A stretch of DNA of 30,479 nucleotides, from positions 1 to 30,479 of the IMG/VR virus record IMGVR_UViG_3300034073_003143. One strand, given 5' to 3'. The notes under the pieces were generated by a model. It did no database searches and was not told where the DNA came from. It saw nothing but the letters and a program-made list of their open reading frames with translations. The stretch is from a virus. Of this stretch, positions 13,264 through 30,394 are shown piece after piece (the first letter of the stretch is position 1; each line of letters starts with the position of its first letter). The translations under genes were made by a program, and so were the position numbers.

Positions 13264-13266
13264 ATA
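13259..13266 (+). promoter_or_regulatory. Late promoter box (TATAAATA), upstream of a tandem pair
   Basis: An exact TATAAATA octamer overlapping the stop codon of the gp7-like gene. It lies 34 bases upstream of a second exact copy, both pointing at gp8. It might be functional, or chance created by the stop codon. Confidence 0.5.
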
Positions 13267-13292
13267 AACAGAAACTAAAGGTAGTTTTTTCA

Positions 13293-13300
13293 TATAAATA
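13293..13300 (+). promoter_or_regulatory. T4-type late promoter (TATAAATA) for gp8
   Basis: An exact late octamer in a true intergenic gap, ending 39 bases before the gp8 ATG. AAGGAG at 13327-13332, seven bases before the ATG, gives gp8 a strong ribosome-binding site. The spacing matches the promoters before gp48 and gp13. Confidence 0.82.
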
Positions 13301-13339
13301 AAAGAGATTGCCAAACACCCTATTTTAAGGAGATAAAAT

Positions 13340-14608
13340 ATGCCAGCAATTGCAACCAGTAAGTTTAGAGTACATAACGCAGAACAGTTTCTAGAGGCTT
13401 TTTCTGAGGCTTCTAACACTATTATGTACCTATACATTGGTGGAACAAGCCCATTCTCAGATGACTTCAATCCACCAACACCAACCAACTCTACCGCAAA
13501 TATTGAGTTCATTCCTTGGAGAGATTCAATTGCGGCTAAGCGTATTCAATCAACCGATGTTGTTCATGTTATCGACCGTTACGACTGGACTACTGGTACA
13601 GTTTATGACCAGTACGATGACCAAGACACAAACATTCTCGATGATGATTTCTATGTTCTCACCGATGACTTCAATGTGTACAAGTGCTTGTTCAACAACG
13701 GTGGTTTGACTTCAACAATCAAGCCAACTGGTACTTCTACTTCTGCCGCTACACTTGCTGACGGCTACAAGTGGAAATACATGTACACAATTTCAACTTC
13801 AGACGCTTTGAAGTTCTTGACAAACGACTACATGTCCGTTCGTACAGACAACACCGTTGCAGGCGCCGCAGTTGATGGTGGTCTTGACACAGTTCTCGTA
13901 ACTTCAGGTGGTTCTTCATACGGTTCAGCACCTTCAGTTGCTATTGACGGTGACGGAACAGGTGCTACTGCTACTGCAAACATCACAGGTGATGCAGTCA
14001 CTTCAGTTACAATTACTAACGCAGGTTCAGGCTATACCTTTGCTACAGTTTCCTTCTCAGGTGGCGGTGGCTCAGGTGCGGCCGCTAGAGCAATTCTACC
14101 TCCAAAAGGTGGTCATGGTTCAAATGCTATCGAAGAACTTGGTGGTAAGTTCATCATGATCAATGTCCGCTTGGATGGTACTGAAGCAAACACAATCTCT
14201 ACTGCTAACGACTTCCGTAAGATCGGTTTGATTCGTGACCCATATGAGTTTGGTACAACAACCCGTGGTCTTGCGACAAACTATCGCCAGACATATCGTT
14301 ACACAGTTACAGACGCCAACGCTTCATTCAGCCTTGACGAAACTGTTACATCTGGTTCTAATACCGCTACTGTTGTTGAGTGGGATAATACTAACAAGTA
14401 TCTCTTTGTTAACCTACCACTACCACTTGCATTCGCAAACGGTGCTACTGTAACTGGTGGTACTTCTGCCGCAACTGGTACAATTGATGCAATTAGCGCA
14501 CCAGGTCTTGCACCTTACTCAGGTGATGTTCTTTATGTTGAAAACAGAAGCCCAATTTCAAGAGCGAATGACCAGATCGAGGATGTGAAACTCGTTATTG
14601 AATTCTAA
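13340..14608 (+). CDS. 8: gp8 baseplate wedge protein with module insertion
   Basis: A 422-residue protein; T4 gp8 is 334. The N-terminus 'ATSKFRVHNAEQFL' and 'YIGGTSPFSDDFNPPTPT' match T4's 'VTSKFRTEKMLNF...FGRSEPWSSN...PPYPTDS'. 'DGYKWKYMYTIS' matches 'DGYVWEYLFEIP'. The end, 'YVENRSPISRANDQIEDVKLVIEF', matches 'YMENRPPIIMAMDQTEEINILFTF'. The extra length comes from two Gly-rich 'GS[SG]Y' modules (about 185-250) and a 'GATVTGGTSAATGTI' segment near residue 370, both also seen in the neighbouring large proteins. In T4, gp8 is a dimer on the outer face of the wedge. It has its own late promoter and a strong ribosome-binding site. Confidence 0.92.
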   Translation: MPAIATSKFRVHNAEQFLEAFSEASNTIMYLYIGGTSPFSDDFNPPTPTNSTANIEFIPWRDSIAAKRIQSTDVVHVIDRYDWTTGTVYDQYDDQDTNILDDDFYVLTDDFNVYKCLFNNGGLTSTIKPTGTSTSAATLADGYKWKYMYTISTSDALKFLTNDYMSVRTDNTVAGAAVDGGLDTVLVTSGGSSYGSAPSVAIDGDGTGATATANITGDAVTSVTITNAGSGYTFATVSFSGGGGSGAAARAILPPKGGHGSNAIEELGGKFIMINVRLDGTEANTISTANDFRKIGLIRDPYEFGTTTRGLATNYRQTYRYTVTDANASFSLDETVTSGSNTATVVEWDNTNKYLFVNLPLPLAFANGATVTGGTSAATGTIDAISAPGLAPYSGDVLYVENRSPISRANDQIEDVKLVIEF

Positions 14609-14644
14609 GTTTTGAGTTTTTCAACTTAAAGGAAAAAGGGTGAT

Positions 14645-17600
14645 ATGTCAAATCCCGGTGGTGTAGATTTAAATATTGGTCCATACTTTGACGATTATGA
14701 TGAAGACAAGAAGTATGTAAGAGTTCTCTATAGACCTGGTCGAGCAGTCCAGGCTAGAGAACTCACACAAGCGCAGACTTATCAGCAAAAGCAGATTCAA
14801 CGCTTTGCTGAATACTTCTTTAGCGAAGGATCAATTGTAGATGGATGCGAACAGAGTTTAGACTTAAGAATGGAGTATGTAAAACTCCAAACTGAGTTTA
14901 ACTCTGTTGAAGTTGATGTTGACGATTTCTTAGGTAAAAGGGTTGTAGGTGCGAACACTGGTTGCCGTGCCTACACCGGTCTTGTCTCTGACATTGATGG
15001 AGAAGATCCAAAAACTCTTTTCATTAATTATGAATCAACTGGTTCAGTCATTCTTTCTGTTGATGCCACTGGTGCATTTATTACTCTTGGTAATACAGTC
15101 ACATTCAACTCTGGTAATACTGGAGTTATCAAAGCATTTTATCAGGACCCACTTACATCAGTATACAAAGTTTTTGTTGGTGATCTTGTGGGTGAACCTG
15201 ATACAGTTCCGTTTACTGCAAACTCAGTAGGTTCAGATGGCAACATCTTTACGATGAATGTCGGTTCTGTTTCTGATAAGAGAACCTCTACAAAATTTGA
15301 GAATAGCGAAAGACTTTTCGTTTTATTTGATGACATTGCTGATTCACCAAATACTGCATACGCAAACACCGCAACATCTAGAGCAACCTTCACAATCATT
15401 GATGAAGGTCTTGCCACACAAGAAACATTCAATTACGGTTCTAAGTATACTATTAATGATGGTGTAATCTATGTTGCTGACCACTTTGTTAAGCACGATG
15501 CACAGACAATCATTCTTGACAAGTATACAAATCGTCCATCATATAAAGTTGGTGTAATTCCAGTTAAAACATTCATCGACACAGTTGATGACCAAACACT
15601 TCTTGATAACGCACAAGGAACACCAAACTTTCAAGCACTTGGTGCAGACCGTCTTAAGATTGATACAACACTTGCTAAAGTTGTAATTGATGCAGTCACA
15701 GACGAATCTGAGTTTGTTCCAATTACTGAAGTTATCAATGGCAACATTATCAAAAAATTTACAGATCAAGTCGAAAGCAAACTAGAAGACGCACTTGCCA
15801 AAAGAACATTTGAAGAATCAGGAAACTATACACTTTCTGATCCAAGAATCTTTATTCGTGAACACTTAAGAGTAAATGACAATCGAGGTAAATTTACTGT
15901 CGCCGAAGGCGGTAACAATGAATTGCTTGTCATTGAAACTGATCCTTTCGTTTCGTATGTAAAAGGTTATCGAAACGAATTACTTACAAAAGTTTTCACA
16001 CCTGTTCGCAAAGGTACTGACACTCAGTTTGTTGAACAAGTAAAAACTTCAGTACTCGTTGGTAGTTACATTCCAGTTAAAGAACTTGTTGGTACATGGG
16101 ACTTCATGGAATCAACAACCATTGATCTTTATGATACCGCACAACAGGCAGTTTCAAATAATAGTTTTAGTTCTACAACTCTTACAGGCACTAAAATTGG
16201 TGAAGCAAGAGTAAGAGCCGTTGAATATGCATCTGGTACAGTAGGTACTGCTGATTCAAGATACAATTTCTACATCTATGATATCACAATGAATCAAGAT
16301 AAACTCTTTCAAGATGTTCGTTCATTCTATCAAACAGGTGGCAGTTTTCCAAATCGATTCGCTGATGTGGTTGTTGACACATTAGGTAACGCAACACTCA
16401 GAGAGAGTGCATTTGAATCGTCAATCTTTAAACTTCCATACACTGGTATTCGAACAATTCGTGATGATAATAACAATGTGGAAACAGGATTTCAATTTAG
16501 AAAAGAATTTCCTGCAAACTTTAACGGTGCTGGTCAAGTTACACTTGCGACTACAGACTTGAACGAAACCTTTGCTTCTGGTGGTACTGAAGCACTTAAG
16601 AACACAAATTATCTTGTTGTACCAACAAATACTGCAAACACTTCTGCACTTACTGGTACTGCAAATGTCACAAATGGTAGCACCACAGTTTCAAGTCTTC
16701 CTGGCGCTACAACTACATTCACTCAAGAATATCAAGTTGGCGATGTAATTCGTGTTGGCGCACAAGACAGAATCATTAGTTCAATTACAAACAACTTTGT
16801 CTTGACCGTTGCTTCAGCATTTTCTTCTACACAAAGCAATCAACCACTTTACAAAGTATTTCCTGCTGGAAGACCAATCAAACTTTCTGGCATTGGTTCA
16901 AACGGTGTTGAAAGAACAGTTTCAATTGGTTCTCCACCACAAACAGTTGATATCGATCTGCAAGAAACTGGTTTGATTACTTCAATTGGTTCTGGTTTTG
17001 CCGCAAGGGTTTCAGTAATTATGAATCGTGCAAACGCCAGAGAAGTTCGTAAGACACTTAACGCAAATCGTGAAGTGCAAATTCAAGCCAATACACATCC
17101 AAATGGATTTGTTGGTCCATACGGATTGGGTTATGGTGACATTTATCAGATTCGTGGCATCTACCAATCAAGCGGCTTTGGTATTCCAGCAACAACAAGC
17201 AATACGAATGTCACAAGTCTTTATACACTTGATAACGGTCAAAGAGATACCTCGTATGAACATGGAACAGTTACACCAAATGTCGGTGTAACACCAACAG
17301 GCAATCTTCTTGTTGTTTTTGATCATTTCTCTCACGATACTTCACAAGGTATTGGATATCTTTCATTTGATTCATATCCAGTTAATGATGTTACATCGTC
17401 AAATACAACAATTCGAACAGAGCAAGTATCGTCATATCGATCAACAAGAACTGGTGAATTGTTTAACCTTCGTGATTGCATTGACTTTAGACCAATTAAA
17501 GCCGCAAACACATCAGCAACAAATCCAATTAGTTCTGGTCTCTATCAAATTCCAACAGGTGGTTTGCACTTTCCAACACCAGCATCAGACTTTGATGCAG

Positions 17601-20600
17601 ACTTAATTTACTACAAAGGAAGAAAAGCAAAACTCTATGTTGATGAAAACGGTGCACTAGGAATCAATGATGGCTCTCCTGGTTACCCACTTGCATCTCC
17701 ACCACCATCAATTCCTGACACACTAGAACTAGCAGAAATTACAATTCCTGTTTATCCTTCGCTTGCTACTGACATTCGCATTGATTCTTATAAGAATCGT
17801 AGATTTACAATGCGTGAAATTGGTAAGATGAACAAGCGTATTGAACAGATTGAATACTATGCAACACTCAGCGAACTAGAAAAACAAGCACAATCAAAAG
17901 TAGAAATCGACAACGATGGATTTGATCGTTTCAAGAATGGTATTCTTGTAGATTCTTTCAGAGGTCACAACATTCATGATGTTTTCAATCCTGATGGCAA
18001 TCGTGTTCGAATTGATACCAGAGCAAACTATGCTACTGCATATGCAAATAATGAGGTTCAAGTTGAACTATTGTTGAATGAAGGCTCGTCAACAAACTTT
18101 AAAAAGACACCTGGTAGAAAAGTATATGTAAATTATACTGAACAAGAATTTATTGATCAGCCATTTGCCTCTACTACAATTAACTTAGCCCAAGAACTTA
18201 CATTTACTTGGTCTGGTGATATGACAGTTGTTCCAGCAACCGATAACTGGATCGACACAAGATTTGCACCAGAAGCAAACTCAGTTGTTGATCTAACTGG
18301 TATTACAGATAACTTTAGAGCATTGACGGATTCTTGGAATACTGTTGTTGCTCCACATCTACGCCATTGGGTTGGTGAGACTCCAGTTACCACAACAACC
18401 ACAACATCTGGTCGATCACGAAGCGGTGCATTAGTTACTGACTTTACTGATACTAGAACACTTACAACTCAGAACCAAACTCTGAATGAAATTCAAGCAA
18501 ACTTCACTCTTGCAAACGAAGATGTAAACAGAGTTACCGAAAGAGTTGCCGACATTGGCATCAAACATTTTATTCGACCAAGAGATTTTGTATTTGTTTC
18601 ACAAGGCATGAAAGATGGCGCAAAACTATATGCATTCTTTGATGGTGAAAATGTAACCGCAAACTGTACTCAGATACAATTAGCATCTGGTGCTGATGTA
18701 AATGATTTGTTCGATCTATTTAATACAGATGGTATTCTTCAAGCCGATGCAAGCAAGTACACTCGTGGAACTGCTGGCGACCTTACTGTAAAAAGTAATC
18801 TCATTGTTGGTGTGTTTAGAGTTCCAGAAGGTAGATTCTATGTTGGTCAAAGATCATTTAGATTAACAGACAGTCCAACAGATAATGTTGCAGAGGCAAC
18901 AACAATTGCCACACAGTCAATTTTTGCACAAGGTACTTCAGTTACTAAAGGTTATGACATTGTTAACACAAGACCATTCACATTTGATGGTTTTGCAAAC
19001 CAAGCACTCAGAGGTGATGGAACGACAAGAAGAGTTACTCTCAGAGATGAAACTACAAGAAGAATTGATCGCCAATGGTGGGATCCACTTTCACAAAGTT
19101 TCTATGTTGACGAAGAAACATATCCAGAAGGTGTTTATGTTACTTCTCTAGACTTGTACTTTAGAACAAAAGCACCAGACACCGCTAAAAAAGGTGTGAC
19201 TTGCGAAATTCGTGAAATGCTTAATGGCTTTCCAACACGAAGCGTGATTGGTGGTGAAGTTGCCCGAAAAGAACATGATGATATTCGAACAAGTACAGAC
19301 AGTACGGCAAACACCACATTTACTTTTGCAAACCCAATCTTCCTACCACCTGGTGTTGAATATTGTTGGGTTGCAAAACCTGATGGTAATGTTACAGACT
19401 TCAATGTATTCGTTGCAGAACTTGGACAGTTTGACATTACAAATCCAGAAGTTAATTTGAGAATTACTGAACAACCAGCAACAGGTATGTTGTTTACTTC
19501 AGCCAATGACTTCACATGGATACCAAGACAGAATCAAGATGTTAAGTTTAAACTAAGAACTGCAAAATTCAGTACAACTCCTGCCACAATTATTCTACAA
19601 AATAAACCTTGGGCAAATACTGGCGGCAACTTTGCATACAATGCTTACTCATTGAACATTGAAAATCTAACAACACCAAAATCAAATATTCTGTACGAAG
19701 CAAGAACTGCTGACGGATCATACACTCTCAGCACATTCAATGGTGTGAAGAATCTAGAACGCATTCAGTTGGCGGCAATGCAACAACTTGCAAATACAAC
19801 AAATGAAGCAACAAATCTTGCAACAAATAAATCATTGACAGTAAGAGCAACATTGCTTACCGAAAATGCTAATGTGTCTCCATATATTGATTTGGAGAGA
19901 ATGCGTGTTTACTTTGAACAAAACATTATTAACAATCAAACCTTCAATCAATTGACTGGTACTGTTACATACAATTCATCAAACAATATTGTTGCTGGTG
20001 TTGGCACTCTCTTTGATAGTGAAATCGATGTTGGTGAATATGCATTGTTTGGTGAAGAGTATCGTCAAGTTTCTTTTGTTGCAAACAATAACTATCTTGA
20101 AGTTAAAAACAACTTTACGACAAACGGATCAGGCGTTACTGTTATCAGTAAACTAGCAGAGAATCCATCAGGACCATATTCTGATCAGACAAGATATATT
20201 ACCCGTGTGGTAGAATTGAATGACGGATTTGAATCATCCGACTTGGCAGTTTATTTGGCAGTCAATCGCCCACCAGGCACAGATATCAAAGTCTACTACA
20301 AAGTACTAAGCGAGAGTGATAACGATCCATTCGACTTCAAGTTCTATAATGAAATGGCGCTTGATGGTACATCAGTTACCGATCAAGACCCAACAACCTA
20401 CAATGAAGAAAAGTATATTGTACCTATCGCTAAAAAGACAGGTGGTTCAAGACTTCTGAATGGTCGAGTTTCAATCACAAATGGCTCGACAGATGTTTCT
20501 GGTTCAAATACAGTATTCTTGGAACAGTTACAAGTTGGTGCAGACATTGCTATTGGCACATCTAGACTTCAAAGAACAATCGCATCAATTGTAAATAACA

Positions 20601-20806
20601 CTTTCTTGACTGTAACATCTGCATATTCTACTACTGCATCAGATCAAGAGATTTATAGAATTCTAAATAACTCAATTGGATATACAACTCCAGACGGAAG
20701 ATCATTTAGTGGATACAAGTATTTTGCCATTAAAGTCGTATTCTTATCAACCAACACGGCAGTTGCACCAAAAATTAAAGATTTACGAGTGATTGCCTTG
20801 GCTTAA
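14645..20806 (+). CDS. 2053-residue DUF4815-type virion structural protein
   Basis: The largest gene in the window. The N-terminus (about 8-64) carries the DUF4815 signature: 'LNIGPYFDDYDEDKKYVRVLYRPGRAVQARELTQAQTYQQKQIQRFAEYFFSEGSIV'. I recall similar giant proteins in marine T4-likes, in the place where T4 has gp9 to gp12; the function is not established, though a peripheral baseplate or fibre-base role is likely. A charged helical segment (about 1055-1085, 'MNKRIEQIEYYATLSELEKQAQ') lies mid-protein. A small beta module occurs at about 670, 1772 and 1940. No signal peptide or membrane helix is seen. AAGGAAAAAGGG precedes the ATG. Confidence 0.85.
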   Translation: MSNPGGVDLNIGPYFDDYDEDKKYVRVLYRPGRAVQARELTQAQTYQQKQIQRFAEYFFSEGSIVDGCEQSLDLRMEYVKLQTEFNSVEVDVDDFLGKRVVGANTGCRAYTGLVSDIDGEDPKTLFINYESTGSVILSVDATGAFITLGNTVTFNSGNTGVIKAFYQDPLTSVYKVFVGDLVGEPDTVPFTANSVGSDGNIFTMNVGSVSDKRTSTKFENSERLFVLFDDIADSPNTAYANTATSRATFTIIDEGLATQETFNYGSKYTINDGVIYVADHFVKHDAQTIILDKYTNRPSYKVGVIPVKTFIDTVDDQTLLDNAQGTPNFQALGADRLKIDTTLAKVVIDAVTDESEFVPITEVINGNIIKKFTDQVESKLEDALAKRTFEESGNYTLSDPRIFIREHLRVNDNRGKFTVAEGGNNELLVIETDPFVSYVKGYRNELLTKVFTPVRKGTDTQFVEQVKTSVLVGSYIPVKELVGTWDFMESTTIDLYDTAQQAVSNNSFSSTTLTGTKIGEARVRAVEYASGTVGTADSRYNFYIYDITMNQDKLFQDVRSFYQTGGSFPNRFADVVVDTLGNATLRESAFESSIFKLPYTGIRTIRDDNNNVETGFQFRKEFPANFNGAGQVTLATTDLNETFASGGTEALKNTNYLVVPTNTANTSALTGTANVTNGSTTVSSLPGATTTFTQEYQVGDVIRVGAQDRIISSITNNFVLTVASAFSSTQSNQPLYKVFPAGRPIKLSGIGSNGVERTVSIGSPPQTVDIDLQETGLITSIGSGFAARVSVIMNRANAREVRKTLNANREVQIQANTHPNGFVGPYGLGYGDIYQIRGIYQSSGFGIPATTSNTNVTSLYTLDNGQRDTSYEHGTVTPNVGVTPTGNLLVVFDHFSHDTSQGIGYLSFDSYPVNDVTSSNTTIRTEQVSSYRSTRTGELFNLRDCIDFRPIKAANTSATNPISSGLYQIPTGGLHFPTPASDFDADLIYYKGRKAKLYVDENGALGINDGSPGYPLASPPPSIPDTLELAEITIPVYPSLATDIRIDSYKNRRFTMREIGKMNKRIEQIEYYATLSELEKQAQSKVEIDNDGFDRFKNGILVDSFRGHNIHDVFNPDGNRVRIDTRANYATAYANNEVQVELLLNEGSSTNFKKTPGRKVYVNYTEQEFIDQPFASTTINLAQELTFTWSGDMTVVPATDNWIDTRFAPEANSVVDLTGITDNFRALTDSWNTVVAPHLRHWVGETPVTTTTTTSGRSRSGALVTDFTDTRTLTTQNQTLNEIQANFTLANEDVNRVTERVADIGIKHFIRPRDFVFVSQGMKDGAKLYAFFDGENVTANCTQIQLASGADVNDLFDLFNTDGILQADASKYTRGTAGDLTVKSNLIVGVFRVPEGRFYVGQRSFRLTDSPTDNVAEATTIATQSIFAQGTSVTKGYDIVNTRPFTFDGFANQALRGDGTTRRVTLRDETTRRIDRQWWDPLSQSFYVDEETYPEGVYVTSLDLYFRTKAPDTAKKGVTCEIREMLNGFPTRSVIGGEVARKEHDDIRTSTDSTANTTFTFANPIFLPPGVEYCWVAKPDGNVTDFNVFVAELGQFDITNPEVNLRITEQPATGMLFTSANDFTWIPRQNQDVKFKLRTAKFSTTPATIILQNKPWANTGGNFAYNAYSLNIENLTTPKSNILYEARTADGSYTLSTFNGVKNLERIQLAAMQQLANTTNEATNLATNKSLTVRATLLTENANVSPYIDLERMRVYFEQNIINNQTFNQLTGTVTYNSSNNIVAGVGTLFDSEIDVGEYALFGEEYRQVSFVANNNYLEVKNNFTTNGSGVTVISKLAENPSGPYSDQTRYITRVVELNDGFESSDLAVYLAVNRPPGTDIKVYYKVLSESDNDPFDFKFYNEMALDGTSVTDQDPTTYNEEKYIVPIAKKTGGSRLLNGRVSITNGSTDVSGSNTVFLEQLQVGADIAIGTSRLQRTIASIVNNTFLTVTSAYSTTASDQEIYRILNNSIGYTTPDGRSFSGYKYFAIKVVFLSTNTAVAPKIKDLRVIALA

Positions 20807-23095: not shown

Positions 23096-24097
23096 ATGCC
23101 ATTCATTAGTAGTGTAAGAGGAAATTTAAGCGCCCAAGGAAGAAGTGGTCGTGTAGGTGATACTGGAAACAGATTTTTAACTGCAACTGGCGGATCCGAA
23201 TCAACCAATGGTGACTATAAAGTTCATGTGTTTAATAGCCCAGGAACTTTTACTGTAAATGCTACAGGAACCGATGCTACCTATGGAAATAAAATTCGTT
23301 ATTTGATTATTGGTGGGGGTGGAGGTGGTTCTGTTGCCGCTGGAGCACAAAACTTTGGATCATCTGGTGGAGGCGGTGCTGGTGGATATTTAACAAGCGG
23401 AAACGATGATACCGCAGGATCATATAATGTGACTGTTAATGCACAAGCATATCCTATTGGTGTAGGTACTGGAGGGGCGCCACAACAACATACCGCCGGA
23501 GAAACAACTTTTCCTGGAGGAACTCAAGCAAATAATGGCGGTAATAGCACCGCATTTGGCTTGACTGCGATTGGCGGTGGGGGTGGAGGAAGTAATGACT
23601 CCGCAGGAAGACCAGGCGGATCAGGTGGTGGTGCCGGAACGGGCTCAGAATCTCCCGGCGTAACAGGACCGTACGCTGGCGGCTCAGGAACTCCAGGTCA
23701 AGGAAATCCTGGTGGGGCAGGATCATCACCACAAAATGGTATGGCAGGCGGCGGAGGAGGTGCCGGCGGTGCTGGACAGAATGGACTTGCAGGCGCAGAT
23801 GGTGGTGGTCAAGGTGGTGCTGGACTTTCATCAAATATCACAGGAACTACAGTTTGGAGAGCAGGCGGCGGCGGTGGTGCTAGATATCCTGGACCTCCAC
23901 ACCCAGATACCAGCCCACCAAATAGTGCAGGAGGTGGTAGAGGGGGTAATGGTAGTGACGAAGCGTCTGGGCAACCTGGAGTAAACGGCACAGGTGGTGG
24001 AGGAGGCGGAAGCAACAATGAAGACCCATACAATCCAACCGTTGTTGGTGGCACTGGAGGTTCTGGTGTTGTAATTGTCAGATACAAATATCAATAA
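23096..24097 (+). CDS. Glycine-rich tail fibre tip / adhesin candidate
   Basis: A 333-residue protein. Residues 1-65 form a short N-terminal part, with 'DYKVHVFNSPGTFTVNATG' then 'IRYLIIGGGGGG', the glycine-rich-domain entry strand. Residues about 70-325 are dominated by Gly with Gly-runs and GGxGG, GNPGG and GTPGQG segments. It ends with the strand 'GGSGVVIVRYKYQ'. Such domains occur at fibre tips, where Gly-runs can pack as polyglycine-II helices, as in the adhesin gp38 of T4-like phage S16. Variable loops between Gly-runs would contact the receptor. It lies 18 bases after the fibre gene with its own AGAGGG site, so it is probably the partner tip. Confidence 0.8.
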   Translation: MPFISSVRGNLSAQGRSGRVGDTGNRFLTATGGSESTNGDYKVHVFNSPGTFTVNATGTDATYGNKIRYLIIGGGGGGSVAAGAQNFGSSGGGGAGGYLTSGNDDTAGSYNVTVNAQAYPIGVGTGGAPQQHTAGETTFPGGTQANNGGNSTAFGLTAIGGGGGGSNDSAGRPGGSGGGAGTGSESPGVTGPYAGGSGTPGQGNPGGAGSSPQNGMAGGGGGAGGAGQNGLAGADGGGQGGAGLSSNITGTTVWRAGGGGGARYPGPPHPDTSPPNSAGGGRGGNGSDEASGQPGVNGTGGGGGGSNNEDPYNPTVVGGTGGSGVVIVRYKYQ

Positions 24098-24110: not shown

Positions 24111-24740
24111 ATGAATGATTATGAAGTTTTACCTTTGTTTTCAACTCCAGTATATTCAAAAGTAATAAATTTTGTAACTGAAGAAGAAAAAAATAAGTTG
24201 ATAAATGAAGTTCCTTTAGATCGACACGAATCTAATACATTCACACAAAGTAAAAATCTAGAATTAATTGATGAATTTAGATTTAGAAAATTAAGAGATA
24301 ATATTACTAGAGAATTTAAAGAGTATACTGTAAACTTTTTAAAAATTGATGAAAACATAACTTTTAGAAATACAACTTCTTGGATTACAATTCAAGAATT
24401 TGATGATGAAATTTTACCAAGAAATTATAACAATTCTTTGTTTACTGCAATATTGGCAATAGATGTTGATGATGGTTCTGGAGATATAGAATTTCATAAA
24501 AATCAATTTGGTGATATAAGTTCAGTAAATTTTAACATGAAGAAAAATGAAGAAACAATATACAATGCAAATTCTTGGAAAATAACTCAGAAAAAGAATC
24601 AACTTTTAATTTTTCCTTCACATCTGATTCATCATGTAAAGCCTAATCATTCATCTGGATTTAAAAAAGTGCAACTCTTTATGAATTTTTATATCGTTGG
24701 ATGTACTGTTGGTGAAAAAGAAGAATTACTATTTTATTGA
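24111..24740 (+). CDS. 2OG-Fe(II) oxygenase-like protein, probably degenerate
   Basis: A 209-residue protein of the type 'putative 2OG-Fe(II) oxygenase' (TIGR02466-like). The opening 'VLPLFSTPVYSKVI' and the distal motif 'LLIFPSHLIHHVKPNHS' (165-181) are typical. The expected N-terminal iron His pair should fall near residues 104-109, after 'SWITIQEF', but the sequence there is RNYNNS, with no His or Asp pair. The 2-oxoglutarate-binding Arg is replaced by Lys (K185/K186). It may be inactive, or bind another ligand. AAAGGA lies nine bases upstream. It is the only array member on the plus strand and overlaps the facing gene by 7 bases, tail to tail. Confidence 0.75.
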   Translation: MNDYEVLPLFSTPVYSKVINFVTEEEKNKLINEVPLDRHESNTFTQSKNLELIDEFRFRKLRDNITREFKEYTVNFLKIDENITFRNTTSWITIQEFDDEILPRNYNNSLFTAILAIDVDDGSGDIEFHKNQFGDISSVNFNMKKNEETIYNANSWKITQKKNQLLIFPSHLIHHVKPNHSSGFKKVQLFMNFYIVGCTVGEKEELLFY

Positions 24741-25336
24741 TGAGAGGTATTAAAACTCAATACAATTCTAGAATCACTTTCATTAATCTCATACATTGAA
24801 CCATGAGATAGCCAACTAGGAAATAAAATTAATGAACATGGTTCTGGCTCAAAGTAGTAATGTTCAAAGTTAAATTCGCTTGGCTTTGAATATTGAGAAA
24901 AATATTTTACTAATTTATTTGGATTTTCAAAATAGATTTTACTACTTTGTCTATCTGCTTCTAAAAATAAAACGCCAGAAAGTACGCTAAGTGGATGAAT
25001 ATGTTGTTTGAGTGCGCTACCTTTTCTTTGAATGTTGAACCAAGAGTTTGTTATTTGTAATTTTTCAATTCCAATTTGATCAATATAATCATTAACACAT
25101 TCTAAAATTTGATTTTTTAAATTTAAGCATGAAGAAATTTCTGCGGATATTTTCTCAATAAATTTTCCATTTAGTTCAAAATTAGTTTTCCCATTCTCTA
25201 AAAGTTCTCCGTGATTTTTTAAATCACCATTTATACTATGGCAATAATTTGCAATGTCTTTTCTTTGACTTTCAGAAATCGCATATCTATACTTGTTTAT
25301 CAATGTCGGAAAAAGTTTATAAGATTCTTTTTTCAT
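24734..25336 (-). CDS. 2OG-Fe(II) oxygenase (TIGR02466-like)
   Basis: A 200-residue protein. The N-terminus 'YKLFPTLINKYRY' is the family opening. The iron-binding pair is in 'KQHIHPLSVLSGVLFLEA' (H112, H114), followed by 'IYFENPN'. The distal motif is 'LILFPSWLSHGSMYEINESDSRIVLSFNTS' (169-198), with His178 and Arg190 for 2-oxoglutarate. All expected ligands are present, so activity is plausible. The substrate is unknown. It is the last gene of the minus-strand operon and is joined to the preceding gene by a 4-base ATGA overlap. Its stop lies inside the end of the convergent plus-strand homologue. Confidence 0.88.
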   Translation of the reverse strand: MKKESYKLFPTLINKYRYAISESQRKDIANYCHSINGDLKNHGELLENGKTNFELNGKFIEKISAEISSCLNLKNQILECVNDYIDQIGIEKLQITNSWFNIQRKGSALKQHIHPLSVLSGVLFLEADRQSSKIYFENPNKLVKYFSQYSKPSEFNFEHYYFEPEPCSLILFPSWLSHGSMYEINESDSRIVLSFNTSHQ

Positions 25337-26001
25337 AATTTTACCGACCTAATTAGACAATTGTTTTTATCATTGTTATTTTTCAAAAAACAATTCATAC
25401 CATCTTCAGTTATAATGTCAAATCCAATACTATATCTTTCCTCATCACTTAAAGAATCTACGCAATGCGGTAAGTAAGAAGGAAATAGTGTAATTGCACC
25501 TTGATGATTCTTAACTTTGAACAAACCTTCGTTCAAAGAGATAAAAGGTATTTCATAATTTGTTGTTGTGCAATTATGTGTTAAGACAATATTACCACTC
25601 AAAAAAGAATTTTCGTGTGTCGCATGATTGTGTAATTTTAAATTCATGTTTTTCTTCTGAGGAAAAATCCAACCATTGATCCACAAATTTGATGGGATTG
25701 GCACATTTAACTCTTGCAGAAAGCAGTTAATATTGAATTTTATCTGCTCTTTAATTTTCTGAACTTCATGTTGCGACCATTCAAAAAAATTATAATCTGT
25801 CCATTTTGTATTTGAAAAATCTTTTTCGTTTTCTTTCACTATGACTAAAACTTTGTCAATCAGATTTTTATCAATACTGTTCATCCAAATTGGCACATCA
25901 AATATTGGAGCAAAAGGATTTTTTTGTTTTAATCCACAAAATCTAATTAAGTTTTGACTTTTAGTTTTTACTCTGTAAATTGAGTTTTCAATTTGAAACA
26001 T
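25333..26001 (-). CDS. 2OG-Fe(II) oxygenase (TIGR02466-like)
   Basis: A 222-residue protein. After an N-terminal extension (about 1-30), 'FAPIFDVPIWMNSID' starts the domain. The iron motif is 'LKLHNHATHENSFLSGNIVL' (H124, H126). The distal motif is 'ITLFPSYLPHCVDSLSDEERYSIGFDI' (H179, R189). The ligand set is complete and of the same subtype as the downstream neighbour, though overall similarity is low, so this is an old duplication or separate acquisition. The start overlaps the previous gene by 14 bases and has only a weak ribosome site, suggesting translational coupling. Confidence 0.87.
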   Translation of the reverse strand: MFQIENSIYRVKTKSQNLIRFCGLKQKNPFAPIFDVPIWMNSIDKNLIDKVLVIVKENEKDFSNTKWTDYNFFEWSQHEVQKIKEQIKFNINCFLQELNVPIPSNLWINGWIFPQKKNMNLKLHNHATHENSFLSGNIVLTHNCTTTNYEIPFISLNEGLFKVKNHQGAITLFPSYLPHCVDSLSDEERYSIGFDIITEDGMNCFLKNNNDKNNCLIRSVKL

Positions 26002-26494
26002 ATAAATCTTGAATTATGATAGCAGAATCTTGAGATTCTAATTTTGTTGTTTCATAACAAAATACCGATGGAAAAATTAGAAATCTATTGTGCTTTGCTT
26101 CTATTGCCACCTCTTGATTTAGAATAATATCTGAACCTAAAATTTCATCTTTAATCCATCCAAACAAAGTAAAAACAGAATTTGAATTTTGTAATTGTAA
26201 AAATTGTTGACTTTTCACAAAATTAATTTCAGTTTTGGTTTGATTCACCCTTTCTAGCATATAGAATAAAGGATGCTTTTGAGAAAATTTTTCCAAATTC
26301 TCTGAAGTTAAAACTTTTGATAATTCTTTAAAAATTGAAGAGCAGGTTAAATCAGAAAATACTTTTTCTAAATGTACATGATGTGAACTGTTTGATAAAA
26401 AATAAAGTTCTTTATATGCCACATTTAAATTTTCAAAGCAATCTTCAATTACTATAATTGGCAATTCATCAACCGAGTGTAATTCAATATTCAT
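25988..26494 (-). CDS. Degenerate oxygenase-fold protein in the array
   Basis: About 168 residues. The start is 26497 or 26494 (adjacent ATGs); 26494 gives better spacing to GAGAGG. 'LPIIVIEDCFENLNVAYKEL' resembles the opening of prolyl-hydroxylase-like 2OG proteins, and 'HNRFLIFPSVFCYETTKLESQDSAIIIQDLYV' keeps the FPS strand of the neighbours. The distal His position reads Cys/Tyr, no HxD/HxH pair precedes it, and no Arg follows. I read it as a beta-helix-fold relative that has lost its metal site. Homology rests on the FPS strand and context. It might regulate or partner an active member. Confidence 0.55.
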   Translation of the reverse strand: MNIELHSVDELPIIVIEDCFENLNVAYKELYFLSNSSHHVHLEKVFSDLTCSSIFKELSKVLTSENLEKFSQKHPLFYMLERVNQTKTEINFVKSQQFLQLQNSNSVFTLFGWIKDEILGSDIILNQEVAIEAKHNRFLIFPSVFCYETTKLESQDSAIIIQDLYVSN

Positions 26495-26804
26495 CATCTA
26501 CCTCTCTAATATTTTTCCACAAAACGCATACGCAATTTTGATCTTGTTTAAAATTTTCGTCTAAGTTTAATAAAGTATTTCTACTCATAAAAAGCAATTC
26601 TTTCTCGTCAATTAAAATAAAAGAAACGAAATCACAATTTCTTAAATCTATAGAATCTTTCCATTTGCAATATATGGTATGTTCGATTTCTGTTTTTACA
26701 TCAAATGTTTTTTCTATAAACTCTTTTGACTTTTGATTTAAAAGAGTTTCATCTTCAGAATAAAAATCTTCAAACACATAAAGTTTTTTTGGGTTCAATA
26801 ACAT
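26484..26804 (-). CDS. Short array protein of unknown function
   Basis: A 106-residue protein. It begins 'LLNPKKLYVFEDFYSEDETL', which is like the first strand and helix of prolyl-hydroxylase-like 2OG proteins, but it ends before any iron-binding region would be expected and has no HxD motif. It may be a truncated oxygenase or an unrelated small protein. It follows the upstream gene by three bases and overlaps the next by a few, so it is translated as part of the operon. Confidence 0.55.
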   Translation of the reverse strand: MLLNPKKLYVFEDFYSEDETLLNQKSKEFIEKTFDVKTEIEHTIYCKWKDSIDLRNCDFVSFILIDEKELLFMSRNTLLNLDENFKQDQNCVCVLWKNIREVDDEY

Positions 26805-26807
26805 AAT

Positions 26808-27290
26808 TTAAAAATAATTAAAATTAATGTTTACTCTAAAGGGTTGGTCTGTACAAGTCGTGCTTGAGTGTATAACTTGTGGATCAAAAATTAAAATTCT
26901 ATTTTTTTTCGATTCTATTTTTGTCTTGTCATTTAAAATTGTGTATCCATTACAATCATTAACATAAAAAATTGCCGCTTTATGATCATAGTCAAAATCT
27001 TTGTGACCTTTGTGTATATGCAACTTAGGAGTTTTCATATACATGTTGCCTTTAATTCTGATTAAAGATTTAATTTTGAGTTTTTCGATGAAGGGACTGA
27101 AAACATGAAAATTATCTGAATTTGGTTTATACTTGTCATAAAAGAGATGTGTGAAGTATCCATCACCATCTTCTACATGAGAAACTCCAGAGTTATAGTA
27201 CCAAGGTAAAACTTGAGGACATGTCATTAAGTATTGAATTATGTCAAAATCTTCATTGGATAAAAAATTATCGATCACTTCATGCTTCAT
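26808..27290 (-). CDS. 2OG-Fe(II) oxygenase, prolyl-hydroxylase-like
   Basis: 160 residues from the ATG at 27290, chosen because AAAGGA lies six bases upstream and it gives a 4-base overlap with the preceding gene. A longer start at 27335 would add 15 residues. The opening 'HEVIDNFLSNEDFDII' is typical of prolyl-4-hydroxylase-like enzymes. The iron site is most likely 'GHKDFDYDHKAAIFYVND' (His96, Asp98), followed by 'GYTIL'. The distal His141 is in 'NRILIFDPQVIHSSTTC', with Arg152 in 'QPFRVNINFN'. The ligand set is complete. The substrate is unknown. Confidence 0.87.
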   Translation of the reverse strand: MKHEVIDNFLSNEDFDIIQYLMTCPQVLPWYYNSGVSHVEDGDGYFTHLFYDKYKPNSDNFHVFSPFIEKLKIKSLIRIKGNMYMKTPKLHIHKGHKDFDYDHKAAIFYVNDCNGYTILNDKTKIESKKNRILIFDPQVIHSSTTCTDQPFRVNINFNYF

Positions 27291-27802
27291 GATATTTCCT
27301 TTAAAAAATTTTCGTTTAAGTTTGAAGTATACCATACAGATACGGTATATCTTGAACCTTTAATCACATTCATGACATTGTGTTTAAATTCTTTGCCGCC
27401 AAAGTATACAGTCCTTCCCGCTAAAGGCTGAACCGAAACACCTTCAACGGTAGTCTGTCCACCAATGTAGTCATCATTTATATATGTTATACTTGCGGCA
27501 GTTCTATCGTCAACAGATTTATCAAAATGAAAAGTCTTTGATGAACCTTTTGGATATTTAACAATCTCAATGTTTTCTATGTAATCAAATCTATTGTCAT
27601 ATTTTACAAAATTTTTTATTTGTTTGCAAATATTGATGACCATATCATATAAAACACAATCGGTGTTTTGAGAGAGACCATCGTTTAATCTCAACAATCT
27701 TGTTTCTGCCCAGATTTGACTGTCAACTAAATTATTTTTAAATCTAGATATGAGTTCTACCTGAGTGCTTTTTGGCATTTCGATTTGAGATATGTATATC
27801 AT
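27287..27802 (-). CDS. 2OG-Fe(II) oxygenase, prolyl-4-hydroxylase-like
   Basis: 171 residues from ATG 27802, which overlaps the upstream stop as ATGA and has AGGAAA upstream. A longer frame reaches 27853 but would overlap the previous gene by 55 bases. The active site is textbook: 'KTFHFDKSVDDRTAASITYINDDYIGGQTTV' (His92, Asp94, then the GG.T strand), 'GRTVYFGGKEFKHNVMNVIKGSRYTVSVWY' (His141, Arg151). This is the best match to classical P4H-like enzymes in the array. It could hydroxylate proline or another side chain. Confidence 0.92.
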   Translation of the reverse strand: MIYISQIEMPKSTQVELISRFKNNLVDSQIWAETRLLRLNDGLSQNTDCVLYDMVINICKQIKNFVKYDNRFDYIENIEIVKYPKGSSKTFHFDKSVDDRTAASITYINDDYIGGQTTVEGVSVQPLAGRTVYFGGKEFKHNVMNVIKGSRYTVSVWYTSNLNENFLKEIS

Positions 27803-28380
27803 GTCCAAGGCTTTCCTAATGACCACATGACTATACTGTGTCTGGTGCCCCAAAAGAGTGGTGTAACTCTATGTCTTAAAAAAGATGGAAAGACAACAAT
27901 TGATCCTTGTGGTTTTATCTCATAACAAGTTTCTATTCTAGAAAGTCCATAGTCAAACTGCAAATCACCACCAATATAATCTCTATGATCTGTTAAGGAA
28001 AGAATAAGACTTAACTTTCTTATCTTTCCATTAAATGATGGAAATATATTATTTTTATATGGTTCTGGTGCTTGGTCGGCGTGCCAGTCATAATGTTCTC
28101 CTGGAGATTGATATTCTGTGAATTGAATAGATTCACTCCAATCCCATTGAAATTTCCATTCAGCATTTACATTAGCCTCTTCAACGAATGGTTGTAAAGT
28201 TTCATATAACCATCTATCTTCATGCCATGAAATTTTAGATTTTCTTTGCCTTAAATTTAATTCATCAATTCCAACTTTTCCTTGCGTTAAAGATTTCGTT
28301 AAACAATGACTTTTAATTTTTTCGCAAGTTTCTTTACTCAACGCACCAGTAAAAAACCAAAAATTATTTTTTAGCATCAT
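27799..28380 (-). CDS. 2OG-Fe(II) oxygenase, PKHD/PiuC-like
   Basis: A 193-residue protein. 'FWFFTGALSKETCEKI' is the opening strand and helix. The core 'YQSPGEHYDWHADQAPEP' gives the iron pair His100/Asp102, with 'RKLSLILSLTDHRDYIGGDLQF' after it. The distal part, 'GSIVVFPSFLRHRVTPLFWGTRHSIVMWSLG' (159-189), supplies His170 and Arg180. The pattern is that of the PKHD-type hydroxylase family (PiuC/YbiX). AAGGA sits nine bases before the first of two adjacent ATGs, supporting 28380. It follows the upstream gene by 12 bases. Confidence 0.93.
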   Translation of the reverse strand: MMLKNNFWFFTGALSKETCEKIKSHCLTKSLTQGKVGIDELNLRQRKSKISWHEDRWLYETLQPFVEEANVNAEWKFQWDWSESIQFTEYQSPGEHYDWHADQAPEPYKNNIFPSFNGKIRKLSLILSLTDHRDYIGGDLQFDYGLSRIETCYEIKPQGSIVVFPSFLRHRVTPLFWGTRHSIVMWSLGKPWT

Positions 28381-28392
28381 ACAATTATTTCC

Positions 28393-28959
28393 TTACTCAT
28401 AAGAATACCAACCAGTCGTAATATATTTAGTTTGTGTTTTTGAAATAACCCCTCTATGAGTAAAAGTCCATTCGGCTGGCCAAATAACAGTAAGACCTTT
28501 TTTGGGAGTAATTGTAACTTTTTGATATAACCATTCGGTTCCACCCTCATCAGTAACATCATTTAAATATGTCATAAAAACTAAATGTCTTTTTAATGCC
28601 CAATCAATGTTTCCAGTTTTTTCGTAGTGCCATAATTTAAATCCTTGATTTGGCAAATATTTTTGAATGTTAAAATCTTCAATTAAATTCCACTTGCTTT
28701 GATTAATAGTGCAATATTCGTATATTGACGAATATTTTTTACAAATTTTATCTAGTTCATAACAATAAGTTTGAATAACATGATTGTTAATTTTAGGACT
28801 AATTGATATGTCAGTAGATTCTTTTATTTGAGTGTTGATTTCTCCTGAAGCCCCTACTTTTCCTGGTTTTTTTTCATTACAATTTTCATAGTAGTCTATT
28901 AAAGAATCGCAGAGATTTTCATCTATAAAATCTCCATACAAAAAATCAGCAAAAATCAT
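28393..28959 (-). CDS. 2OG-Fe(II) oxygenase with HxE site
   Basis: A 188-residue protein. 'GFKLWHYEKTG' gives His111 and Glu113 in place of the commoner Asp; then comes 'RHLVFMTYLNDVTDEGGTEWLYQ' and 'KGLTVIWPAEWTFTHRGVISKTQTKYITTGWYSY', with distal His168 and Lys178 where Arg is usual. HxE and Lys at these positions are known but uncommon in the superfamily, so activity is plausible but not certain. I recall similar 2OG proteins in cyanophages. The start overlaps the upstream stop by 4 bases (ATGA). Confidence 0.85.
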   Translation of the reverse strand: MIFADFLYGDFIDENLCDSLIDYYENCNEKKPGKVGASGEINTQIKESTDISISPKINNHVIQTYCYELDKICKKYSSIYEYCTINQSKWNLIEDFNIQKYLPNQGFKLWHYEKTGNIDWALKRHLVFMTYLNDVTDEGGTEWLYQKVTITPKKGLTVIWPAEWTFTHRGVISKTQTKYITTGWYSYE

Positions 28960-29540
28960 TTCTTCGTTATTCCCAATACTGGTCTTCTATCGTATCGATA
29001 TGACTTAAATGGTCCGTCAGCATCAACAAAATGAATAAAAATTTGAGTGTGTCTACCGCCTTTATACTCTTCTCGCCAATGTGGCAGAATCATACCTTTG
29101 TACACCACCAAATCTCCCTCATTCATATTAATCTCTGATACGGTGCCATCTAATTTTTCAAAAAATATTGGCCAATCGTGAGTTTTTTCAATACAAATTG
29201 TAGCAGAAAATTCGCAAGAAGGTCTATCTGTGTGTCTTCTCAAGATTCCTTCATTGTAGTATATTCTATAAAATGTATAAGATTCGTGCAATCTTTTTTG
29301 TGTTACTCTTTCCAATACTGGTTTCAAATAAACCATCAATCCTTCAGTATGTGGTGCAGAGTACCAAGAAAAACTTTTAGAAACTTGACCGCAAGAGTAT
29401 GGATAAGGATTTTCTAGGGTAGGAGGATTCGTAAAAAGACAGGAATCTTCTTGAACTGTAGTAATGCATTTGATATATTCTACCAATTCTTTTGATAAGG
29501 CTTGTCTAACAATTTCATAGTTGTCCGTAGCAAAAGTCAT
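28956..29540 (-). CDS. 2OG-Fe(II) oxygenase, first gene of the minus-strand operon
   Basis: A 194-residue protein. 'YYNEGILRRHTDRPSCEFSATICIE' provides His103 and Asp105, followed by 'DWPIFFE'. 'GDLVVYKGMILPHWREEYKGGRHTQIFIHFVD' provides His154 and Arg163. The ligand set is complete. Its 'LRRHTDRP.CE.S.T' context differs from the other members, so it represents another subgroup. CGGAG at 29546-29550 lies five bases before the ATG. Being first in the operon, its 5' region should contain the operon's promoter. Confidence 0.9.
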   Translation of the reverse strand: MTFATDNYEIVRQALSKELVEYIKCITTVQEDSCLFTNPPTLENPYPYSCGQVSKSFSWYSAPHTEGLMVYLKPVLERVTQKRLHESYTFYRIYYNEGILRRHTDRPSCEFSATICIEKTHDWPIFFEKLDGTVSEINMNEGDLVVYKGMILPHWREEYKGGRHTQIFIHFVDADGPFKSYRYDRRPVLGITKK

Positions 29541-29572
29541 TTTTTCTCCGAAAAAAGTAATTAAAGTACATT

Positions 29573-29580
29573 CTTATATA
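29573..29580 (-). promoter_or_regulatory. Possible promoter (TATATAAG) for the oxygenase operon
   Basis: On the minus strand TATATAAG lies about 32 bases before the first oxygenase ATG and could serve as a sigma-70 -10 element. The -35 region is poor (TTTTCG at about the right spacing). No exact late octamer faces this way. If it is the promoter, the cassette would be early or middle rather than late. Confidence 0.28.
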
Positions 29581-29603
29581 GGCCGCCACAGGATACGAAA
29601 ATG

Positions 29604-29611
29604 CATAAATA
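29604..29611 (+). promoter_or_regulatory. Late promoter box (CATAAATA) for gp13-gp14
   Basis: CATAAATA followed by GATG gives the 11-mer ATAAATAGATG at 29605-29615, identical to the one upstream of the gp48-like gene. The box ends 33 bases before the gp13 ATG. AGAGGA at 29634-29639, five bases before the ATG, is the ribosome site. It restarts late transcription after the oppositely oriented cassette. Confidence 0.72.
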
Positions 29612-29644
29612 GATGGTACAAATCGACTTTTTTAGAGGACTATC

Positions 29645-30394
29645 ATGAGTGCTACAAAACCAGCAAGCAGAGAAGAATTAAAAGAATATTGCCTAAGAAG
29701 ACTTGGCGCACCTGTAGTGGAAATCAATGTGGCAGATGAACAGGTTGAAGACTGCATTGACATGGCACTTCAGTACTACCACGACTATCACTTTGATGGT
29801 ACACAAAAAGTCTATCTAGCGCATCAAGTTACCGAAACCGATGTTCAAAACAAGTATATTGACATACCACAATCCGTAATTGGTGTCATCAATATTTTTG
29901 ACATTGGTAGCACATACTCAACAAACAATCTTTTCAACATTCGCTATCAGATTGCGCTGAACGACCTTTTTGCTTTCAACTACGGTCCGTTTGCGCCATA
30001 CTACATGGCACTTCAAAACATTCGTTTGGCTGAAGAACTTTTTGTTGGCAAGCAATCTCTACGCTTCAATCGTCACCAAAACAAACTTTACATTGACATG
30101 GCATGGGGTGAAAAGATTGTGGTTGGCGAGTACATCATCGTAGAAGGATATCAGATTCTTGATCCAGATACATATACCGATGTGTACAATGATCTTTGGC
30201 TTAAGCGATATACAACTGCACAAATCAAAAAGCAATGGGGCGAGAATCTCAAAAAGTTTGAGGGGCTTCAGATGCCAGGCGCAGTTACATTCAACGGACA
30301 AAAGATTTGGGATGAAGCACTTGACGAAATCACAAAACTAGAAGAAGACATGTTGAATTCATACTCACTACCAGTCTCAGATATGGTTGGCTAA
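29645..30394 (+). CDS. 13: gp13 neck protein
   Basis: A 249-residue protein; T4 gp13 is 309, and marine versions are shorter as I recall. The N-terminus, 'KPASREELKEYCLRRLGAPVVEINVADEQVEDCIDMALQYYHDYHFDG', is characteristic of marine T4-like gp13. Further landmarks are 'IDIPQSVIGVINIFDI', 'LRFNRHQNKLYIDM' and 'WGENLKKFEGLQMPGAVTFNGQKIWDEA'. gp13 sits with gp14 under the portal and closes the filled head for tail joining. It has its own late promoter. The next gene starts two bases after its stop, in the canonical 13-14 order. Confidence 0.93.
   Translation: MSATKPASREELKEYCLRRLGAPVVEINVADEQVEDCIDMALQYYHDYHFDGTQKVYLAHQVTETDVQNKYIDIPQSVIGVINIFDIGSTYSTNNLFNIRYQIALNDLFAFNYGPFAPYYMALQNIRLAEELFVGKQSLRFNRHQNKLYIDMAWGEKIVVGEYIIVEGYQILDPDTYTDVYNDLWLKRYTTAQIKKQWGENLKKFEGLQMPGAVTFNGQKIWDEALDEITKLEEDMLNSYSLPVSDMVG

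Follow-up and report, generated by a model that had tools for sequence, protein, structure and literature searches.

We analysed a virus fragment of 30,479 bases, IMG/VR record IMGVR_UViG_3300034073_003143 (the window, in what follows), in which T4-like tail genes encode baseplate wedge and hub proteins as well as long fibre-like proteins and gp13. Between a glycine-rich fibre gene, ending at 24097, and gp13, starting at 29645, ten open reading frames (ORFs) at 24111-29540 form an array that is almost certainly one of 2-oxoglutarate (2OG) and Fe(II)-dependent oxygenases. The ORFs are numbered from g1, on the plus strand, to g10; g2-g10 lie on the minus strand, with g10 first in transcription order. 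Genes named SSM1 and SRSM4 belong to the cyanophages S-SM1 and S-RSM4, and percentages are identities to them.

24111-24740, plus strand: g1, PF13759-type 2OG-fold protein (PF13759 E 4.1e-8; phrog_81 E 5.2e-22)
24734-25336, minus strand: g2, PF13759-type oxygenase with HxH...H and R190 (PF13759 E 6.6e-20)
25333-26001, minus strand: g3, PF13759-type oxygenase with HNH...H and R189 (Pfam PF13759; orthologue of SRSM4_133, 45%, and SSM1_059, 42%)
25988-26497, minus strand: g4, predicted inactivated orthologue of SSM1_056 and SRSM4_136 (HVD replaced, distal His changed to Tyr)
26484-26804, minus strand: g5, ORF of 106 amino acids (aa), coding by its codon usage, which is that of its neighbours; positional counterpart of SSM1_055 and SRSM4_137
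26808-27290, minus strand: g6, 2OG oxygenase with HxD...H and R152 (phrog_274 E 5.7e-46; orthologue of SSM1_054, 47%, and SRSM4_138, 43%)
27287-27802, minus strand: g7, PF13640 prolyl-hydroxylase-like 2OG oxygenase (PF13640 E 1.4e-9; phrog_2297 E 5.6e-38; orthologue of SSM1_053, 48%, and SRSM4_139, 50%)
27799-28380, minus strand: g8, PF13640/PKHD-like 2OG oxygenase (PF13640 E 2e-11; PKHD-type 3dkq E 1.2e-4; orthologue of SSM1_052 and SRSM4_140)
28393-28959, minus strand: g9, PF13640 2OG oxygenase with HxE...H and K178 (PF13640 E 1.7e-8; orthologue of SSM1_051, 48%, and SRSM4_141, 49%)
28956-29540, minus strand: g10, 2OG oxygenase with HTD...H, first gene of the minus-strand operon (phrog_2954 E 3.8e-52)

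Nine of the ten ORFs are members of the 2OG-Fe(II) oxygenase superfamily. Membership on this scale far exceeds chance: six of them (g1, g2, g3, g7, g8 and g9) pass the Pfam gathering scores for PF13640 or PF13759, and g6, g7 and g10 fall in PHROG families with E-values of at most 1e-37. The PHROG families and invariant iron triads place g6 and g10 in the superfamily, for g10 together with the fold, and g4 belongs to it by orthology to SSM1_056. The complete iron/2OG site is predicted to be kept in seven members, g2, g3 and g6-g10. In the family alignments the triads of g10 (H103-x-D105...H154) and g8 (H100-x-D102...H170) are each present in 61/61 members, and that of g6 (H96-x-D98...H141) in 26/26. 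The triad of g7 is H92-x-D94...H141, with the D in 13/14, and that of g9 is H111-x-E113...H168, with the E in 12/13. For g2, H112-x-H114...H178 is found in 48/48, and for g3, H124-x-H126...H179 in 3/3. HxD/E...H and a basic R/K could be placed in g6-g9, HxH...H and an R in g2 and g3, and HTD...H in g10. An earlier reading of the window, made from the letters alone (the sequence-only reading), had counted seven full sites with the expected iron pair. The count holds, with ligands invariant or nearly so, but in g2 and g3 the pair is HxH, which replaces the canonical HxD/E as it does across the PF13759 family.

According to its AlphaFold2 model (mean predicted local distance difference test score, pLDDT, 93.7), g10 has a double-stranded beta-helix fold. 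The nearest solved structure is the P. putida prolyl-4-hydroxylase 4j25 (Z 17.4, 2.4 Å over 161 residues), and the epimerase SnoN (Z 17.3) and human PHD2 (EGLN1) are also among the closest. The joint g7/g9 profile matches a Bacillus prolyl 4-hydroxylase (P4H; 1.4e-21), the collagen P4H of the virus PBCV-1 (5c5t; 9e-18) and, among human proteins, prolyl 3-hydroxylase 1 (5e-13). Among characterised relatives, peptidyl prolyl hydroxylases give the best matches to g7, g9 and g10. The family profile of g2 matches the solved structures 3bvc (1.5e-30) and 2rg4 (1.4e-27).

One fold member on each strand had been read as lacking the full site, and both cases are borne out. In g1 the paired iron ligands are replaced by N105-Y-N107, where relatives have HxH, while the distal H174 and K186 are retained; from these residues, g1 is probably catalytically dead. 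The second is g4, which aligns with SSM1_056 of S-SM1 over 92% of the g4 length (blastp, 68 bits, 25% identity) and with SRSM4_136 at 51.6 bits. SSM1_056 retains HVD...H, and both parts are replaced in g4. Against an iterated superfamily profile g4 scores 21.4 bits, compared with at most 11.5 in 500 shuffles; by hhalign alone the signal is too weak. No database family matched g4, and no close relatives were found in viral contigs. Structure prediction, which the sequence-only reading had proposed as a check on each protein, gave the clear fold of g10, and for g4 a low-confidence model (pLDDT 66) whose top matches in the PDB have 2OG oxygenase-superfamily folds; the g4 model was built on an alignment of superfamily members and is thus not independent. 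Membership is settled because g4 is orthologous to SSM1_056. We regard g4 as a true family member that is dead, as judged from its lost ligands.

The sequence-only reading had allowed up to ten oxygenase genes. Nine stand, and the tenth, g5, does not: no similarity to the superfamily was found, all its profile scores lying at or below those of 500 shuffled sequences, and its description as a truncated oxygenase was rejected on these profiles and shuffles. There is a single weak local match between g5 and SSM1_055. The small genes at this position in S-SM1 and S-RSM4 are related to each other (E ~1e-7) and faintly to g5. Recent tandem duplication was also rejected for the array, as identities within the window reach at most ~26% over useful lengths, against 36-50% to outside relatives for most members.

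Many pelagiphage-like arrays begin with, or have close to their start, a conserved protein of ~168 aa with a 2OG-like C-terminal half in which the distal His is changed to Tyr (loci L067:1429-1932, L055:4360-4863, L007:5752-6255 and 23 more). By its sequence it is probably a conserved non-catalytic oxygenase-fold protein.

The coordinates, strands and tight packing of the array agree with the sequence-only reading. One plus-strand ORF (24111-24740) is followed by nine minus-strand ORFs that fill 24734-29540. The junctions g10/g9, g8/g7, g7/g6 and g3/g2 are ATGA overlaps, and gaps of 12 and 3 bases separate g9/g8 and g6/g5. These fit the earlier description of ATGA overlaps or gaps of at most 12 bases, which had left unmentioned two 14-base overlaps, at g5/g4 and g4/g3. 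The start of g1 is 13 bases past the end of the fibre gene. The flanking features are:

23096-24097, plus strand: glycine-rich fibre/adhesin-like protein, 333 aa, 31.5% Gly (phrog_2295 E 1.7e-54), directly upstream of g1; candidate substrate
29541-29644, no strand: divergent intergenic region between g10 and gp13, 104 bp (from the sequence)
29645-30394, plus strand: gp13 neck protein, head-tail adaptor Ad2 (phrog_211 E 1.6e-43; tblastn)

For the fibre protein, tblastn gave no match in annotated phages, and megablast of the window against phages gave none either. The nearest relatives of the gp6-like baseplate protein of the window are those of the Pelagibacter phages HTVC008M (39.9%) and Mosig (38.2%). 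The intergenic region contains CATAAATA at 29604, on its gp13 side. Exact copies of TATAAATA, which resembles the -10 element of T4 late promoters, occur on the plus strand at 705, 13259, 13293 and 20819, near the starts of structural genes. A scan of the window found no exact TATAAATA upstream of g10 on the minus strand, and matches with one mismatch are not more frequent in the window than expected by chance; the timing of expression can therefore not be deduced from this motif. Two very large proteins, at 8164-13263 (1699 aa) and 14645-20806 (2053 aa), match virion-structural and unknown PHROG families and are likely long fibre or baseplate proteins.

The array has been overlooked in part because relatives of three members carry other names. 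The PHROG families of g6 (phrog_274), g7 (phrog_2297) and g10 (phrog_2954) are labelled "DNA endonuclease V", "DNA endonuclease" and "ferrochelatase". Genes named denV in cyanophages carry the 2OG motif, in S-SM1 (SSM1_054, L170:13249-13737) and S-RSM4 (L171:8219-8698), as does their counterpart in the window at 26808-27290. Neither g6 and g7 nor their S-SM1 orthologues, denV included, have a Pfam match to a DNA glycosylase or nuclease, and g10 has none to ferrochelatase. We rejected all three names: for g6, that of T4 DenV, on this negative result and the invariant HxD...H of its family; for g7, on a profile that groups with prolyl hydroxylases and a nearly invariant triad; and for g10, on the missing match and a model with the 2OG oxygenase fold. 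The cyanophage genes called denV or "DNA endonuclease V" (phrog_274) are, by motif and family, predicted 2OG oxygenases. The labels conceal part of the arrays, inflating the counts of DNA-repair and haem genes in cyanophages and making the array appear smaller than it is.

We then counted glycine-rich neighbours in arrays of three or more genes with enough upstream sequence, scoring a glycine-rich ORF at most three genes upstream. Such an ORF is found in 25/42 loci centred on g10 (odds ratio 6.8, p 2.8e-9) and in 37/38 centred on g8 (odds ratio 203, p 1.9e-29), with p-values that overstate the effect as the loci are related to one another. After collapsing at 70% identity, 15/26 clusters have the neighbour. 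By inspection, several loci lacking it carry other repetitive tail-like proteins at that place. Fibre genes also adjoin the arrays of HTVC008M, Mosig, Sf-FP1, S-RIM44 and S-CREM1 (a collagen-like gene). In L062, L057 and L151, contigs whose remaining structural genes do not appear T4-like, the array likewise comes after a fibre gene. The glycine-rich stretches contain 7% Pro and 5.5% Asn, so acceptors for hydroxyl groups are present, which is permissive only. A small protein with a MAHFA-like start often lies between the glycine-rich fibre gene and the array (e.g. L005:13825-14406, L151:3913-4380) and is not seen in the window; it is possibly a fibre chaperone or cap.

We tentatively favour hydroxylation of virion fibres over that of host proteins, metabolites or DNA, because arrays of this kind usually follow a glycine-rich fibre gene in metagenomic phages and members resemble prolyl hydroxylases. 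Of the targets that the sequence-only reading had named (phage fibres, host surface molecules or nucleotides), fibres would fit best. That the fibre is the substrate of the array enzymes is a serious possibility, if somewhat short of an even chance. The active members would be co-produced during infection, and each might hydroxylate a separate protein position, most likely on new fibre or adhesin chains encoded next door. Hydroxylation would alter receptor binding or fibre stability, and the inactivated members may be binding partners or decaying leftovers. In a bolder form, which we consider doubtful, the array would serve to edit receptor-binding fibres after translation: several hydroxylases, each with its own specificity and all travelling between phage types with glycine-rich adhesin genes, would write on the fibre tip a chemical pattern beyond the gene sequence and so tune host recognition, with the dead members as substrate adaptors.

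Several points weigh against fibre hydroxylation. There is no direct evidence of hydroxylation on any fibre, and a literature search found no paper linking 2OG arrays to fibre modification. The proximity to fibre genes may reflect a shared insertion hot spot only; the counted loci are not independent, and 11/26 clusters, many of them with other tail-like genes, are without a glycine-rich neighbour within three genes. A prolyl-hydroxylase fold does not fix the substrate, the small-molecule enzyme SnoN being nearly equal in its match to g10. The fibre and neck genes of the window are encoded on the other strand from the array, so that g1 alone could be co-transcribed with them, and an exact TATAAATA is missing upstream of g10. 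2OG genes also occur elsewhere in such genomes, e.g. scattered among the replication genes of S-SCSM1.

The prolyl-hydroxylase likeness is shared by a second explanation, in which proteins of the host translation apparatus (EF-Tu, ribosomal proteins) or host regulators are hydroxylated and the cell is redirected. The P. putida enzyme nearest to g10 was solved with EF-Tu, the Bacillus P4H, which also modifies EF-Tu, ranks first for the g4 model, and the ribosomal hydroxylases Tpa1/OGFOD1 are among the structure matches. We consider this unlikely, as it accounts neither for the fibre-gene linkage nor for why at least seven divergent active enzymes would be needed.

Rather unlikely, too, is that the enzymes, with the flavin-dependent halogenases that often adjoin them, make or modify a small molecule or a glycan of the cell surface in the course of infection. 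Halogenase genes adjoin the arrays of S-CREM1, S-RIM44, Sf-FP1, syn9, L012 and L025 and lie near that of HTVC008M; the L062 array contains a 537-aa gene that by eye is carbamoyltransferase-like (L062:1921-3534), and the g10 model is as close to the antibiotic epimerase SnoN as to P4H. The window, however, has neither a halogenase nor a biosynthetic core gene, and the linkage that extends across phage types is to fibre genes.

Sullivan et al. (2010) proposed that cyanophage 2OG genes act on 2OG levels and nitrogen signalling, or in DNA repair (PMC3037559). Neither proposal accounts for the fibre link or for active sites conserved separately in seven members. Depletion of 2OG, or production of succinate, that shifts the host nitrogen signal is very unlikely in our view, although every active member would consume 2OG: one efficient enzyme would be enough, and the many divergent families, each with its own conserved site, point to distinct substrates. 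The arrays of pelagiphages do not fit either, since their SAR11 hosts are not known to have the cyanobacterial NtcA.

It is just as improbable that a selfish or drifting gene pool gathers 2OG genes without a common function at a hot spot beside fibre genes. In its favour, the order varies among pelagiphage arrays, array size in the examined loci ranges from 1 to ~11, and 2/9 window members appear dead. Against this, S-RSM4, S-SM1 and the window are near-identical in order at 25-50% identity and the active sites do not vary over 26-61 family members, which together need long-term selection. Least likely of all is DNA repair or an AlkB- or TET-like modification of nucleic acids, for which the labels of phrog_274 and phrog_2297, an early suggestion by Weigele et al. 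(cited in PMC3037559) and a weak match of the g6 profile to a DNA 6mA demethylase (E 0.04) can be named, as the labels have no sequence support and g7 is plainly P4H-like.

Other genes also accompany the arrays. One to four flavin-dependent halogenases of the tryptophan type adjoin them in many cyanophage-like contigs, and none in the window (L012:1575-3191 and 10794-15317; L025:1077-2699 and 10177-14700; L092:9634-12745; L172:1-3071). Heme oxygenase and PcyA-like genes directly follow the array in the SAR11 phage Mosig (L006:9651-10887) and a related contig (L132:7449-8312), which is odd for a non-photosynthetic host.

The closest known systems are cyanophage arrays. In S-RSM4 (NC_013085, SRSM4_132-142) the array lies between a tail-fibre gene and gp13, as in the window, and has the order g9-g8-g7-g6-g5 (by position)-g4...g3, with identities of 49, 36, 50, 43, -, 25 and 45%, followed by g10. 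It differs in being co-oriented with the fibre and neck genes, in its g4 orthologue SRSM4_136, annotated as belonging to the 2OG-Fe(II) family, where g4 of the window is predicted dead, and in having the g10 orthologue at the gp13 end, which is the opposite end of the operon compared with the window. No g1 orthologue was found in the S-RSM4 array. S-SM1 (NC_015282, SSM1_051-061) has the same order next to two tail-fibre genes, with orthologues of g9, g8, g7, g6, g4, g3 and g10 and a 123-aa gene at the g5 position; unlike the window, it has two g10-like genes and a g4 orthologue that keeps HVD...H. The placement of g10 and g2 differs between the window and arrays of the S-RSM4/S-SM1 type. The dedicated multi-enzyme cassette suggested by the sequence-only reading gains support from these divergent families in nearly the same order, and from a fibre adjacency far above chance.

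In the Pelagibacter phage HTVC008M (NC_020484, gp068-gp072) a minus-strand array also extends from a glycine-rich fibre gene to gp13 and includes relatives of g8, g9 and g10, but it has five members in another order, and further 2OG and halogenase genes lie beyond gp13-gp15. S-CREM1 has nine consecutive 2OG/JmjC genes (SCREM1_72-80) after collagen-like and halogenase genes, in a run far from gp13. Prolyl 4-hydroxylases (Bacillus, P. putida, PBCV-1, EGLN1) share the fold and the HxD...H...R/K site with window members, at a low identity of ~10-16%.

The density of genes, which had been taken as unusual, is not. Arrays equal to it exist in S-RSM4, S-SM1 and S-CREM1; ten 2OG genes of low mutual identity have been described in S-CREM1 (PMC9964418) and 24 in S-SCSM1 (PMC9602691), the latter partly scattered. 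Variants are also present in Mosig, S-RIM44, Sf-FP1, syn9 and smaller pelagiphages. Two family scans of IMG/VR gave at least 600 matches each. Among the IMG/VR loci examined, runs of strictly neighbouring genes commonly number 2-5 and sometimes 7-8, with ten or eleven in one contig; the nine members of the window are at the high end of the range and not a record. Such arrays are frequent in marine phages. The sequence-only reading would have counted as a refutation many described phages with the same array and a known role; we found the array and no known role. The near-constant order across cyanophages and the window, together with the strong tie to glycine-rich fibres, turns a vague idea of host metabolism into a testable one. 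What we add is a gene order that the window nearly shares with S-RSM4 and S-SM1, a correction to three misleading family names, the recognition of putatively dead members and a quantified fibre link. The window array is a further copy, of low novelty, of a cassette conserved in marine T4-like cyanophages and pelagiphages, and is distinctive in its inverted orientation relative to the fibre and neck genes and in its two apparently inactivated members.

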